Source: Deltaproteobacteria bacterium RIFOXYA12_FULL_61_11
GTDB taxonomy: Bacteria > Bdellovibrionota_F > JAHFAK01 > YA12-FULL-61-11
Length of the DNA: 6,204 nucleotides
Direction: 5' to 3'
Assembly (NCBI GenBank): GCA_001799195.1
Contig: MGSU01000342.1
Location: forward strand, 1 to 6,204
The stretch's first letter is position 1; every line of letters starts with the position of its first letter. Positions 1,294 through 6,204 of the stretch are shown one piece after another. A model generated the notes under the pieces. That model did not search any database, was not told where the DNA came from, and saw only the letters and a program-made list of their open reading frames with translations. The position numbers were made by a program, and so were the translations under genes.

Positions 1294-2195
1294 ACGGACT
1301 CCACCAAACCGACCTACCCCGCACCTCGTTCTACGTCCAACGCCGCAGCGCGGCGCGGGAGCGTGCTCGCGTAGCCGTCGCGGCCAGGACCAGCGTCGGG
1401 TTGACCCCTGAGCAGCAAGCGCTCCTACCCCTGGCACCGCCCGCCTCGACCCGGAGCCGATTAGCCGTGGCAGGCGCGGCTCTCCTCGCTTCCTTGCTCA
1501 CCCACGGCGCCATCGTTGGTCTAGGGCTCGTGGCCGGGAAGTTTCGAACCGTCGAGCTTGCAACCGATCGCGACGTCCGCATCGACATGCGCGTGCCCGA
1601 ACCGCTGCCGCCGCCGCCACCACCGCCGAAGGATCCGCGGCCTCGAACAGTCCGTCCGGACGCCCCTGCGCCGACGCCGGTAGCACCCCCGCCCTCGGTG
1701 GAGCCCCTGCCTCCCCCCAGCGTCAGACCCAGGCGCATCGTCGGCCTCAGCCTCTCTTCCACCGCGGCCGACGGCAGCGGACCGACCTTTACCGTCGGTA
1801 ACACCCGGCTGGGGACGACCCCGGACATCGCGGCTTCCCCTGAGCTTGCGGCCAAGGAGCCACCGCCCCCGGAAAAGGTCAACCGGGTGGCCAGCAGGCT
1901 ACCCCTCGCCGGGGTCAAGTACACCCTGCCGAAGCGCAAGAGACCCAGCCTCCCCGCCTACCCGGAACTCTTGAAACGTCAAGGATTTGAAGCCGACGTC
2001 ACGGTCCTGGTCAGCCTCGATGCCTCCGGCAGGGTCCTCTCCGTCAAGTTGATCAAAGAAGCGCCCTATCCCGAGTTCAATGAGGCCGCCCGCCTGGCCG
2101 CTTTGGCCGAGGAGTTCGAACCAGCCCTGCGCGACGGCGCAGCCGTACCCTATACCCTCAGTTTTACCTATCGTTTTCGCCTGGAAGACCAATGA
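1290..2195 (+). CDS. tonB: TonB energy transducer, long form
   Basis: This 301-residue protein spans the inner membrane once and reaches across the periplasm to drive outer-membrane receptors. An unusually long arginine-rich cytoplasmic tail (residues 1-57, nine Arg) precedes the helix at about 58-82. That helix carries Ser68 and His72 in the S-x3-H pattern (ASLLTHGAIV) of Ser16 and His20 in E. coli TonB, needed for coupling to ExbB/ExbD. A proline-rich spacer covers about 103-147 and includes seven consecutive prolines at 107-113. A distinct block at 148-177 (IVGLSL, then FTVGNTRLG) follows. The TonB C-terminal domain occupies about 220-298, starting with the AYPELLKRQG motif and ending in YRF. 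The start ATG overlaps the exbD stop. No good Shine-Dalgarno sequence is visible, so coupling is likely. Its dedicated target is probably the receptor at 3127. Confidence 0.94.
   Translation: MNGLHQTDLPRTSFYVQRRSAARERARVAVAARTSVGLTPEQQALLPLAPPASTRSRLAVAGAALLASLLTHGAIVGLGLVAGKFRTVELATDRDVRIDMRVPEPLPPPPPPPKDPRPRTVRPDAPAPTPVAPPPSVEPLPPPSVRPRRIVGLSLSSTAADGSGPTFTVGNTRLGTTPDIAASPELAAKEPPPPEKVNRVASRLPLAGVKYTLPKRKRPSLPAYPELLKRQGFEADVTVLVSLDASGRVLSVKLIKEAPYPEFNEAARLAALAEEFEPALRDGAAVPYTLSFTYRFRLEDQ
1947..2183 (+). other. TonB C-terminal domain of the transducer (copy 1)
   Basis: Residues 220-298 of the TonB protein. Key features are Tyr224-Pro225, a Gln-Gly pair, an LDASGRV turn, a second Tyr-Pro, an FEPA motif with DG after it, and a terminal YRF strand. 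This is the region that binds the TonB box of receptors. It is listed separately because the receptor encoded two genes downstream contains a clearly similar domain. Confidence 0.9.
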
Positions 2196-3127
2196 GAAGA
2201 ACCAACCTGATCCTCATGCTCCCGATGCTCTGCTCGTTCGCCGCGTGCGGCGGTGACGAGTTCGATCCCTATGGACGCCTCACCGGCCTCCGGCTGCTCG
2301 CCATCAAGGCCGAACCACCCAGCCCGGGTCCCGGCGAGAAGGCCGTGCTCTCGGCCCTGGTGTATACACCACCCGAGGCTCCTCCCGTGACCTATGCTTG
2401 GTCCTGGTGCCCTTTCGCCGGTCCGTCCAGCCAAGGGTATCCCTGCCTGATGGAGGAAACGGACTTCCTCGGTATGCTCAGCCAAGCAGGGGTCGAGGTC
2501 CCTGCCTATGCCCTGGGCACGGATGCGACCGTGGATTTCTCCAATACGCTCGCTCCGGCCCTGGCCGCGTTGTGCAACGGTCTGCTGCCCATCGAACAGG
2601 AATTCGACTGTGAGGGCGGTTTTGCCGTCCAGGTCCGCCTGACCATCACGAGCGGCGAGGAGGAGGTCAGCGCGGTCCAAAGCTTGCGTCTGCGCCATGA
2701 GGCCGGCCTCGAGGCCAACGCCAACCCGGTCCTGAACGGCTTGGTCGCGGTGCAGGACGAAGGTGAGTACGAGCTCAGTGCCGATCCTTCCTCCACACTC
2801 GAGCGCGAAAAAAAGAATGAGATCAAGGCGCTGTTCGACGAGAACGAGGCCGAACAGTACACCGGCAAAGACTCCCTCGGTGTGGCGCGCCTGCAACGAG
2901 AGCGGTTGATCCTGTCCTGGTTCGTGGAGAGCGGCCATACCAAGCACGAGCGGACCAGCTTCGTCGAAGGCATCGCCCCGCTCAAGCGAGCCGCGACCAA
3001 CACCTGGCTTCCCGGACCGGTCAAGGACTACGACCGCACCAGCGCGACCCTGTACGTCATCTTGCGGGACAATCGCGGCGGCATCGACTGGGCTCTTGGT
3101 CGGGTGTTCCTGAAGGAGGCCGAGTGA
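2192..3127 (+). CDS. Predicted lipoprotein of unknown function in the TonB operon
   Basis: This 311-residue protein has a short basic N-terminus, a hydrophobic stretch and a lipobox-like FAAC ending at Cys19, followed by Gly-Gly, so it is probably a lipoprotein without an obvious inner-membrane retention signal. I do not recognise a named family. The mature part looks like two beta-rich halves: one around residues 30-170 (LRLLAIKAEPPSPGPGE, then YAWSWCP) and one around 180-311 (LSWFVESG, then LYVILRDNRGG). It has four further cysteines, at 73, 85, 128 and 140, two pairs each 12 apart, compatible with two disulfides in the periplasm or on the cell surface. The start overlaps the tonB stop as ATGA, and its stop overlaps the receptor start. 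This suggests it works with the receptor, perhaps as a substrate-capturing or assembly partner. That role is inference only. Confidence 0.85.
   Translation: MRRTNLILMLPMLCSFAACGGDEFDPYGRLTGLRLLAIKAEPPSPGPGEKAVLSALVYTPPEAPPVTYAWSWCPFAGPSSQGYPCLMEETDFLGMLSQAGVEVPAYALGTDATVDFSNTLAPALAALCNGLLPIEQEFDCEGGFAVQVRLTITSGEEEVSAVQSLRLRHEAGLEANANPVLNGLVAVQDEGEYELSADPSSTLEREKKNEIKALFDENEAEQYTGKDSLGVARLQRERLILSWFVESGHTKHERTSFVEGIAPLKRAATNTWLPGPVKDYDRTSATLYVILRDNRGGIDWALGRVFLKEAE
3113..3119 (+). promoter_or_regulatory. Strong ribosome binding site for the receptor gene
   Basis: AAGGAGG lies in the end of the lipoprotein gene. It sits 7 nt before the ATG at 3127 and only 4 nt before the in-frame GTG at 3124, which favours the ATG. 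A strong site here suggests that the receptor also receives independent initiation. Confidence 0.75.
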
Positions 3128-5799
3128 TGCAGAAGCTCGTCCTCGTCCTGCTCCTCTCCCTCTGCGGGCTGGCCCGGCCTCAGGAAGCTGCGCCCCTGGA
3201 ACCCGACCCCGCGGCGTTAGAGGCGGGGCAGCTCAGCAAACTGCCGGTACAGAAAACCTTCATCGAAGCTGAGTATCCGGCAAAGGCTCAGGAGCAGGGG
3301 CTCCAAGCCGAGGTCATCCTGTTGCTCGATATCGGCGCCGACGGTAAGGTTGAAGCCGTAGGGGTACTCGAACCCTCTGCCTACCCGGACCTCGGCTTCG
3401 AAGAAGCGGCCATGGCCGCGGCCCAACAGTTCGAGTTCGAACCCGCCGAGCTGGACGGACAGCCCCTAGCCGTGCAAATCTCTTATAGTTATCGCTTCGT
3501 CCTCAAGCCGAAAGCACCGTTGGTGCCGGAGGATACCAGCGCCGACGTCCCGGCACCGGCCGCTCCCCAGATCGTCAATCTGCAGGGTCTCCTGCTCGAG
3601 CGCGGCACCCGCAACCCGCTCGGCGGCGTCCTCATCACCGTGTTTCGCGAACAAGATGGTGGTCCGGTCGGCTTCGAGGCGGTTTCGGACAAGACCGGGT
3701 CCTTCCAGTTCTACGACCTACCCCCGGGTGAGTGGCGGATCCTGGTCGAGGTGCCGGGCTACTACCCCTTCCGCACTACCGAAGAGATTGTGGCCGGAGA
3801 GAGGGTGGACGCTTCCTATTTCGTGGAGAAGGCCTCGTACAACCCCTTCGACGTGCGCGTGACCGCGCCGCGGCCCAAGAAGGAGGTCAGCCGGACCGTG
3901 CTCGAGGTCGAGGAGATCGAAAAGGTCCCCGGGACCATGGGCGACCCGTTGCGGGTGATCCAGAACCTTGCCGGCGTGGCTCGCGGCGGAGGTGGCATGG
4001 AGGGGGGCGGGATCATCATTCGCGGCTCGGCGCCCGAGGACAGCAAGATCTTCATCGACGGTATCGAGGTGCCCACCGTCTACCATTTCGGAGGTTTGCG
4101 CAGCGTGCTGCCGATCGGCGTGCTGGAGGGCATCGACTTCTATCCCGGCAATTTCTCCTCGCGGTATGGCCGGGCCACGGGCGGCATCGTCGACGTCAGG
4201 ACGAAACGCCTCGAACCGCAGAAAGTCGGCGGCAGCGTGGACGTGAGTCTGCTCGACACCGCGGTCTTCGTCGAAGCCCCACTTGGAGAGAAGGCCTCGA
4301 TCGCCTTGGGAGGTCGCCGCAGCTATATCGACTTCCTGATCGAAGCCGTGGTCCCCGACGATGCCGGCGTGTCCCTCACCGTGGCGCCGCGTTACTACGA
4401 CTGGCAGATCCTCGGACGGTACCGGCCCTCGCCGGCGCACGATTTCCAGACCATGATCTTCGGCTCCGACGATCGTTTTGAGGTGCTCTTCGAAGATCCG
4501 GCGGCGCTCGATATGTCGCTCACCTCCAATGATCTCGGCTTCTCCACCACCTTCTACCGAGCCACGGCCGGCTACCGATACATCCCGAACGCGGGTTTCG
4601 AGAACAATTTCCAGCTTGCCGTGGGCCGCGATCATATGAAGATGAACCTGGCCCAGTTCCTGATGGATTTCGACATCGGCTCGTTCCAGCTCCGAGACAC
4701 GACGAGGACCCGACTCGATCCTACTCTCGACCTGGTGCTCGGCCTGGACCTCTTGACCTATACCGGCGATATCGACGTGCGCATGCCGCACCCTCCCAAG
4801 GAAGGACAATCGACCCTGGAGCAGGGGGGCGGCGACGTGGATCTCGATCAGATGATCTCCCGCCAGATCGAGGATTATCTCGAGGTGAACCCGGCCCTCT
4901 TTGCCGAGTTGGAGTACCAGCCGTTGGAGGGACTGCTCCTGATCCCGGGGTTGCGCCTGGATTACTTCGATCGTTTGGATACCGTAGTTCCCCTGCCGCA
5001 CCTTACCGCCCGCTACGCCCTCGGACCTGTATTGACCCCCAAGGCCGGAGTCGGTCTGTACGCTCAGGATGCCGGGGTCGACGAGAGCGACGAGGGGTTC
5101 GGCAACCCGGACCTCGACTACGAACGGGCGTTGCACTGGTCGGCCGGGCTCGAGTATCGCCCTCGGCCCTACCTGACCTTCGATGTCACGGGTTTCTACA
5201 AAAACCTCTGGAGCCTGGTCAGCCCGACCGACCGTTTCGTGACCGAGGACGGTCAGCCCAGACCCCTGGTCTATGACAACCGGGGCGAGGGTCGGGTCTA
5301 CGGTCTGGAACTGGTCACCCGACACGATCTCTCCTCCGGGCTCTCGGGCTGGATCGCCTATACCCTCTCGCGGGCGGAGCGGCACGACTCCGATCGCGCG
5401 GGCTTCCGACTCTTTGACTACGACCAGACCCATATCCTGACCGCGGTCGCCAGTTATGCGCTGCCCCGCAACTGGCAGGTCGGCACCCGCTTCCGCCTGG
5501 TCAGCGGCAATCCGACCACGCCGGTCACCGGTGCGCTCTGGAACGGCGATACCGATCGCTATTCCCCGATCTTCGGGGACGTGAATTCCGACCGCGACCC
5601 GATCTTCCACCAACTCGACCTGCGGCTGGACAAACGTTGGGTGTACGATCGTTTCCTGCTCGCCTTGTACCTGGACGTGCAGAACGTCTACAGTCACCAG
5701 AGCGGTGGGCAGCGCGAGTACAACTTCGACTACAGTCGGTCCAAAGACGGTGGTGGGCTTCCCCTGTTGACCATCCTCGGCCTGCAGGCCGAGTTCTGA
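3127..5799 (+). CDS. TonB-dependent outer-membrane receptor with N-terminal TonB and regulatory-like domains
   Basis: This 890-residue receptor imports or senses an unknown ligand across the outer membrane. A signal peptide (about 1-16, hydrophobic LVLVLLLSL) comes first. Next is a complete TonB C-terminal-type domain (about 39-127), an Ala/Pro linker (about 130-148) and a carboxypeptidase-regulatory-like beta-sandwich (about 149-236). A TonB-box-like FDVRVTA follows at 241-247. The plug covers about 253-360, with IIIRG at 296, IFIDGIEVP at 308 and GRATGGIVDVRTK at 348. The barrel runs to the C-terminus, with NPDLDYERAL at 660 and a terminal Phe typical of outer-membrane barrels. Plug and barrel are full length, with no frameshift seen. 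The regulatory-like domain is common in myxobacterial and Bacteroidota receptors; the extra TonB domain is not standard. ATG 3127 overlaps the lipoprotein stop as TGATG. The ligand cannot be assigned. Confidence 0.95.
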   Translation: MQKLVLVLLLSLCGLARPQEAAPLEPDPAALEAGQLSKLPVQKTFIEAEYPAKAQEQGLQAEVILLLDIGADGKVEAVGVLEPSAYPDLGFEEAAMAAAQQFEFEPAELDGQPLAVQISYSYRFVLKPKAPLVPEDTSADVPAPAAPQIVNLQGLLLERGTRNPLGGVLITVFREQDGGPVGFEAVSDKTGSFQFYDLPPGEWRILVEVPGYYPFRTTEEIVAGERVDASYFVEKASYNPFDVRVTAPRPKKEVSRTVLEVEEIEKVPGTMGDPLRVIQNLAGVARGGGGMEGGGIIIRGSAPEDSKIFIDGIEVPTVYHFGGLRSVLPIGVLEGIDFYPGNFSSRYGRATGGIVDVRTKRLEPQKVGGSVDVSLLDTAVFVEAPLGEKASIALGGRRSYIDFLIEAVVPDDAGVSLTVAPRYYDWQILGRYRPSPAHDFQTMIFGSDDRFEVLFEDPAALDMSLTSNDLGFSTTFYRATAGYRYIPNAGFENNFQLAVGRDHMKMNLAQFLMDFDIGSFQLRDTTRTRLDPTLDLVLGLDLLTYTGDIDVRMPHPPKEGQSTLEQGGGDVDLDQMISRQIEDYLEVNPALFAELEYQPLEGLLLIPGLRLDYFDRLDTVVPLPHLTARYALGPVLTPKAGVGLYAQDAGVDESDEGFGNPDLDYERALHWSAGLEYRPRPYLTFDVTGFYKNLWSLVSPTDRFVTEDGQPRPLVYDNRGEGRVYGLELVTRHDLSSGLSGWIAYTLSRAERHDSDRAGFRLFDYDQTHILTAVASYALPRNWQVGTRFRLVSGNPTTPVTGALWNGDTDRYSPIFGDVNSDRDPIFHQLDLRLDKRWVYDRFLLALYLDVQNVYSHQSGGQREYNFDYSRSKDGGGLPLLTILGLQAEF
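3241..3507 (+). other. TonB C-terminal-type domain inside the receptor (copy 2)
   Basis: Residues 39-127 of the receptor. Landmarks match copy 1 in order: EYP at 49, QG, AEV, a GADGKV turn, AYP, EEAA, FEFEPAELDG and a final YSYRF. By hand alignment I count about 29 identities over roughly 74 aligned positions with one two-residue gap. No transmembrane anchor or proline-rich span accompanies it, so it cannot itself transduce energy from ExbB/ExbD. Confidence 0.88.
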
Positions 5800-5809: not shown

Positions 5810-6204
5810 ATGCACCGTCCCCCGCTTCTCGTCCTCTTGCTCCTGGTGGGTTTCTCGGTCCAGGCCCAGGAGCTCCCCAAGCCGTTGCCCCGCCAGGGGT
5901 ATTTCCTCTCCGTCGGCCTGCACGGCGCGGCAGCGCTCGTCCGCGACGAGGGCGACTGGCAATTCCCCTGGAGCGGTGGTTTCTTCGGCCTGCGTATGGG
6001 AGAGCTGCTCACCCCCGCTCTGGGCCTCGGGCTGGTCCTCGAGGGCGGCCCATTGTCCGGCCCCGACCTCTCGGGCAGTGGGTTCAGCCTGGGTCTCGAG
6101 GGCCAATGGGAGTTCCTACCCCGCTTGATCGCACGCGGCGGGTTCGGCTTGGGCGTGCTCGCGGTGGCCGATACCGACGAGGACGGCAAGCGGCTCTTAC
6201 GCGG
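5810..6204 (+). CDS. Predicted small outer-membrane beta-barrel protein, truncated by the window edge
   Basis: The frame is open from ATG 5810 to the end of the window, giving 131 full codons with no stop. It begins with a convincing signal peptide (MHRPP, then LLVLLLLVGF, with a VQA cleavage site after residue 19). The mature part consists of alternating polar and hydrophobic, glycine- and aromatic-rich strands: GYFLSVGLHG near 30, FFGLRMG near 58, LGLGLVLEGG near 71, FSLGLEGQWEF near 91 and a GGFGLGVLAV strand near 110. This pattern fits an 8-stranded OmpA/OmpW-like barrel, but no family can be named from the fragment. It follows the receptor by 10 nt with a strong ribosome binding site, so it is the sixth gene of the operon. 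Further genes may follow outside the window. Confidence 0.8.
   Translation, partial: MHRPPLLVLLLLVGFSVQAQELPKPLPRQGYFLSVGLHGAAALVRDEGDWQFPWSGGFFGLRMGELLTPALGLGLVLEGGPLSGPDLSGSGFSLGLEGQWEFLPRLIARGGFGLGVLAVADTDEDGKRLLR

Follow-up and report, generated by a model that had tools for sequence, protein, structure and literature searches.

A Ton gene cluster with a composite receptor

The window, that is, the whole 6,204-nucleotide stretch of DNA analyzed here, carries a compact cluster of plus-strand genes that overlap or abut one another, in the order ExbB, ExbD, TonB, lipoprotein, and receptor, which agrees with the context of operon TonB and lipoprotein described in the initial annotation. The cluster opens with genes for an ExbB-type proton channel subunit (positions 182 to 850; Pfam MotA_ExbB, E = 1.4e-34) and an ExbD-type subunit (853 to 1293; Pfam ExbD, E = 4.2e-26), followed by the operon TonB (1290 to 2195), in which a membrane anchor region and a proline-rich stretch were recognized by inspection and a C-terminal TonB_C domain by its Pfam profile (E = 1.2e-13, residues 222 to 298, window positions 1953 to 2183). 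The next gene (2192 to 3127) encodes a lipoprotein with a lipobox-like FAAC near its start and had no match in Pfam or NCBIfam; it is possibly a SusD-like or BtuG-like partner. This family-less lipoprotein is a recurrent neighbor of the receptor, preceding it in close relatives and following it in distant ones. Behind the receptor, the window holds the start of a further plus-strand gene (5810 to 6204, continuing beyond the window) that had no Pfam match, and this conserved, family-less gene also comes after the receptor in the loci of the closest relatives.

The receptor gene (3124 to 5799) starts at either GTG 3124 or ATG 3127, with an AGGAGG at 3113 to 3118. Its product is a TonB-dependent receptor, as both PF07715 and PF00593 matched above their cut-offs, the former over the plug (3886 to 4185, residues 255 to 354; E = 8.1e-11, 42.8 bits) and the latter, TonB_dep_Rec_b-barrel, over residues 450 to 855 of the beta-barrel (4186 to 5799; E = 3.9e-21, 76.9 bits). 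Foldseek likewise supported the barrel and matched the receptor fold to Cir, FecA, FepA, and BtuB. Ahead of the plug, a signal peptide (3127 to 3183) was assigned by inspection from the hydrophobic MQKLVLVLLLSLCGLA and the polar residues that follow. Within about 20 residues of it comes a TonB C-terminal domain (3244 to 3513, residues 41 to 130, with a Pfam core at residues 49 to 127, positions 3268 to 3504), then a transthyretin-like CarboxypepD_reg domain (3574 to 3825, residues 151 to 234; Pfam E = 5e-8 over residues 158 to 227), and then a candidate TonB box, FDVRVTAPR (3847 to 3873, residues 242 to 250), proposed from its location just before the plug and its likeness to known TonB boxes. 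In the alignment, relatives carry sequences such as YETVVRGRK at this position.

By sequence and predicted fold, the N-terminal domain is that of TonB

The initial annotation had placed a TonB C-terminal-type domain at 3241 to 3507, coordinates that proved correct to within a few codons. Pfam TonB_C (PF03544) matched receptor residues 49 to 127 significantly (E = 5.5e-14, 52.8 bits, cut-off 24.6), NCBIfam tonB_Cterm also matched above its cut-off, and the unit conserved among relatives spans residues of about 41 to 130 (window 3244 to 3513). The proposed likeness to the TonB two genes upstream was borne out by BLASTP, with 39% identity over 88 residues (E = 4e-14). Among sequences of solved structures, the domain matched almost only TonB proteins, the best being the TonB of a FoxA-TonB crystal. 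AlphaFold2 models of the whole receptor (48 relatives in the alignment; mean pLDDT 84) and of the fragment comprising residues 37 to 262 (65 relatives) gave the domain pLDDT values of 86 to 96 over residues 41 to 130 and of 96 to 98, respectively. The best structural match of the modeled domain was 6i97 chain D (Z = 12.4, rmsd 1.9, 90 of 90 residues), with Neisseria and E. coli TonB next and 1u07 also among the matches; the second domain of the model fits carboxypeptidase D and transthyretin folds. Profile, BLASTP, PDB-sequence, and fold evidence together rule out a chance or misassigned domain. An STN/secretin-type fold, named beforehand as the outcome that would contradict the assignment, was likewise rejected, as the best fold matches are TonBs and STN (PF07660) had no match in the receptor at E values up to 1. 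On profile and predicted-fold grounds, the receptor domain is a TonB C-terminal domain.

The receptor shares this C-terminal domain with TonB energy transducers, in sequence signature as well as in fold. However, transducers have an inner-membrane anchor and a proline-rich spacer, whereas the window receptor, with its signal peptide assigned by inspection, has neither an uncleaved inner-membrane anchor nor a periplasm-spanning linker and carries the domain N-terminally on an outer-membrane barrel.

The domain is common in receptors of Myxococcota

Fifty-five relatives, mostly labeled Myxococcota or 'Deltaproteobacteria', were recovered when 84,980 species genomes were scanned. Four of these, cut off short of the N-terminus (L021, L045, L055, and L058), were left out of the domain count; the TonB_C domain was found in 49 of the 51 others and is absent from L053 and L059. 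Of the 49 domain-bearing loci, 29 have a separate TonB gene in the stretch that was retrieved, in most cases immediately upstream. At one locus (L014, 3010 to 7007), the expected place of TonB directly behind ExbB and ExbD is taken by a TonB_C-bearing receptor, and no separate TonB gene adjoins it. Two further loci, L037 and L054, show a Myxococcota-like cluster on contigs labeled Klebsiella pneumoniae, labels that are probably wrong.

Whole genomes of 28 relatives contained TonB_C in many further frames of about 790 to 1320 residues, and many of these genomes encode several TonBs. Other barrel classes also combine TonB_C, plug, and barrel, all above the Pfam cut-offs and without CarboxypepD_reg (L064, L069, L065, and L092). 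Frames were counted as such receptors when their match to the model ran unbroken from TonB_C across most of the second domain. Among the matches listed, 45 of 57 sampled genomes of Myxococcota, the phylum of Plesiocystis pacifica, had one or more. The phylum of genome G026 had such a frame in 3 of 28 genomes, and the sample of the window's own phylum consisted of only two genomes drawn at 85% completeness or more. TonB_C-bearing receptors are a broad class common across Myxococcota, of which the window's protein is one member. The window's own genome encodes four plug-bearing receptors, two of them with a TonB_C domain; the second of these lies in an ExbB-ExbD-TonB-receptor-lipoprotein cluster on another contig (G000:C121; L083, 2446 to 7740).

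The domain is old and kept under selection

Among relatives, mean column conservation was 2.41 bits for the domain, compared with 2.01 for CarboxypepD_reg, 2.26 for the barrel, and 2.99 for the plug. The TonB signature, comprising YP, G74, A95-A96-A99, F105, P107-A108, and the alternating pattern of the last strand, is kept in receptor domains at least as well as in the adjoining real TonBs. The receptor copies also have an extra signature of their own before YP, P-x-L-x-x-F-V-x-A-x-Y-P, at a position that in E. coli TonB is taken by the box-binding region near residue 160 (PMC9249621). In conservation the domain slightly exceeds the barrel; it is old and has been kept under selection.

In TonB_C trees of 82 and 76 domains, receptor and TonB copies fell into largely separate groups, with depth poorly resolved, and on average the receptor domain shared 27% identity with the TonB of its operon, the same figure as with other TonBs. 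These separate groups and equal identities rule out a recent duplication of the adjoining TonB. Distances between receptor domains tracked those between TonBs (r = 0.70); with the remainder of the receptor controlled for, the partial correlation was -0.24, so common descent accounts for the correlation. Once shared descent was removed, no signal was left of the receptor domain having coevolved specifically with the operon TonB.

Relation to MxcH, Oar, and receptors with signaling domains

The NCBIfam model of MxcH, the TonB-dependent myxochelin receptor (NF038079), was matched at model positions 2 to 105 by the window receptor and at 2 to 87 by the operon TonB, which indicates that the MxcH model itself begins with TonB_C. 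The window receptor, with a score of 78 bits where the cut-off is 925, falls outside this family, and it has a CarboxypepD_reg between TonB_C and plug. NF038079 was above its cut-off in 2 of 188 Myxococcota genomes, in L107 (model positions 2 to 790) and L108 (103 to 792). The former has TonB_C, linker, box, plug, and barrel, whereas the latter has no TonB_C, so TonB_C is an optional module even inside one receptor type. L107 and L108 make up a natural deletion pair of MxcH-type receptors.

With Oar of Myxococcus xanthus, the window receptor shares CarboxypepD_reg, TonB box (a candidate in its case), plug, barrel, and an own Ton operon (PMC6434023). It differs in having TonB_C ahead of CarboxypepD_reg, while no TonB_C is reported for Oar (PMC6434023). 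FpvA, FecA, and FoxA resemble it in placing a small periplasmic alpha/beta domain ahead of the TonB box (in the window receptor, the candidate box), but there the domain is STN, whereas the window receptor has TonB_C by profile and fold, with CarboxypepD_reg intervening and no linked FecR.

A tentative model in which the domain mimics TonB

The TonB_C domain has the binding surface needed for strand exchange, and the simplest reading is thus that it may act as a TonB mimic, holding the TonB box by strand addition until exchanged for real TonB. After export, the domain would hang in the periplasm beneath the barrel. In the resting state, its edge strand, the same one as in TonB, would hold the TonB box of its own or a neighboring receptor; once substrate is bound outside, the box would be passed to the ExbB/ExbD-anchored TonB from the same operon. 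The domain might in this way raise the threshold for TonB engagement or select which TonB engages, and its optional presence in MxcH-type receptors fits such a regulatory accessory.

The analogy is with FpvA, in which, as long as the receptor is unloaded, the TonB box provides the signaling-domain sheet with a fourth strand (PMC11658791, PMC9249621). Ferric pyoverdine loosens the pairing of sheet and box, and TonB displaces the signaling domain and takes the box (PMC11658791, PMC9249621). In FoxA, the signaling domain can be deleted with TonB binding kept, provided that the stretch upstream of the box stays (PMC6699858), so extensions of this type do not necessarily lock the box.

Pairing of the box with the domain in cis was not seen in the two single-chain AlphaFold2 models, which were built on shallow alignments (48 and 65 rows). 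Residues 243 to 248, the middle of the candidate box, had pLDDT below 50 in the whole-receptor model and formed no strand, remaining unpaired. In the fragment model, a predicted strand at receptor residues 254 to 259, after the box, seems to join the CarboxypepD_reg sheet, since transthyretin alignments extend to model residue 224. A TonB-box-like stretch is kept in most domain-bearing relatives of the alignment, and one clade (such as L038 and L047) has a divergent box region. Between domain and box, MxcH and other receptor subfamilies have no CarboxypepD_reg but a proline-rich linker of some 30 to 70 residues, which makes cis reach plausible there; the interposed CarboxypepD_reg leaves the cis geometry of the window's receptor less certain. 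Given that the FoxA signaling domain is dispensable for TonB binding and that our models give no direct support, we favor the box-holding TonB mimic tentatively, with somewhat less than even confidence. That such proteins form a receptor class with a built-in energizer decoy, in which a TonB rather than an STN fold would serve as a cis strand-exchange switch holding the box until TonB takes over, is a doubtful extension of this reading.

The domain could instead partner with the operon TonB and so form a docking platform. TonB C-terminal fragments crystallize as dimers, 1u07 is among the fold matches of the domain, and a TonB gene accompanies the receptor in 29 of 49 loci, mostly directly upstream. 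FoxA, moreover, binds TonB constitutively via residues beside the box (PMC6699858). Partnership of this kind nevertheless appears unlikely: the correlation of 0.70 falls to a partial value of -0.24, the own TonB is no more alike than others at 27% each, and 20 loci show no TonB gene, though some of their contigs end close by. We give similarly little credence to a role as adaptor or spacer, in which the domain, as one interchangeable N-terminal extension among several, would stabilize the receptor or aid its choice among TonBs without holding a box. Such a role would accord with the adjoining CarboxypepD_reg extension, with the presence or absence of the domain among MxcH-type receptors, and with the several TonBs of many genomes; CarboxypepD_reg extensions are required for the function of many Bacteroidetes receptors (PMC12204202). 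A mere spacer, however, needs no full TonB signature, edge strand included, at TonB-like conservation.

Two further roles would direct the domain toward other proteins. It might bind a TonB-box-like peptide of another protein, for example the lipoprotein of the operon or some periplasmic partner, and thereby assemble an uptake complex, and the same kind of lipoprotein does adjoin the receptor in many loci, but a surface-exposed lipoprotein would be out of reach of a periplasmic domain, and we regard this as improbable. Cell-surface signaling, in which the domain would stand in for STN and contact an inner-membrane anti-sigma factor, is similarly improbable even though the domain occupies the position held by STN in FecA, FpvA, and FoxA: its fold is that of TonB, not STN. 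No STN match was found in the genome, no FecR is encoded in the window, and the genome's single FecR match lies on another contig, all of which speaks against classical cell-surface signaling.

A natural series of zero, one, and two domains

A literature search, with most subscription journals outside its reach, returned no paper on this architecture or its function, and the passages found in a recent force-transducer survey, which searched these Pfam families too, do not mention the fusion (PMC12204202). The guess of the initial annotation that databases may already contain the architecture was right; it is present there as uncharacterised sequence and is commoner than was supposed. Two long-standing questions are how competition for TonB plays out among receptors that exceed it in number and by what means TonB recognizes a loaded receptor. 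A receptor family that bears TonB's own binding domain, with natural copies that have none or two, offers a direct genetic handle on both, and the same family provides a handle on nutrient uptake in Myxococcota. The doubled form was found in L076 (G026:C24), with two TonB_C domains in tandem at protein residues 36 to 121 and 229 to 314, ahead of the second domain and the plug. Two other frames, G075:C166:3218-4126 and G065:C102:39373-40338, look like tandem TonB_C receptors too.
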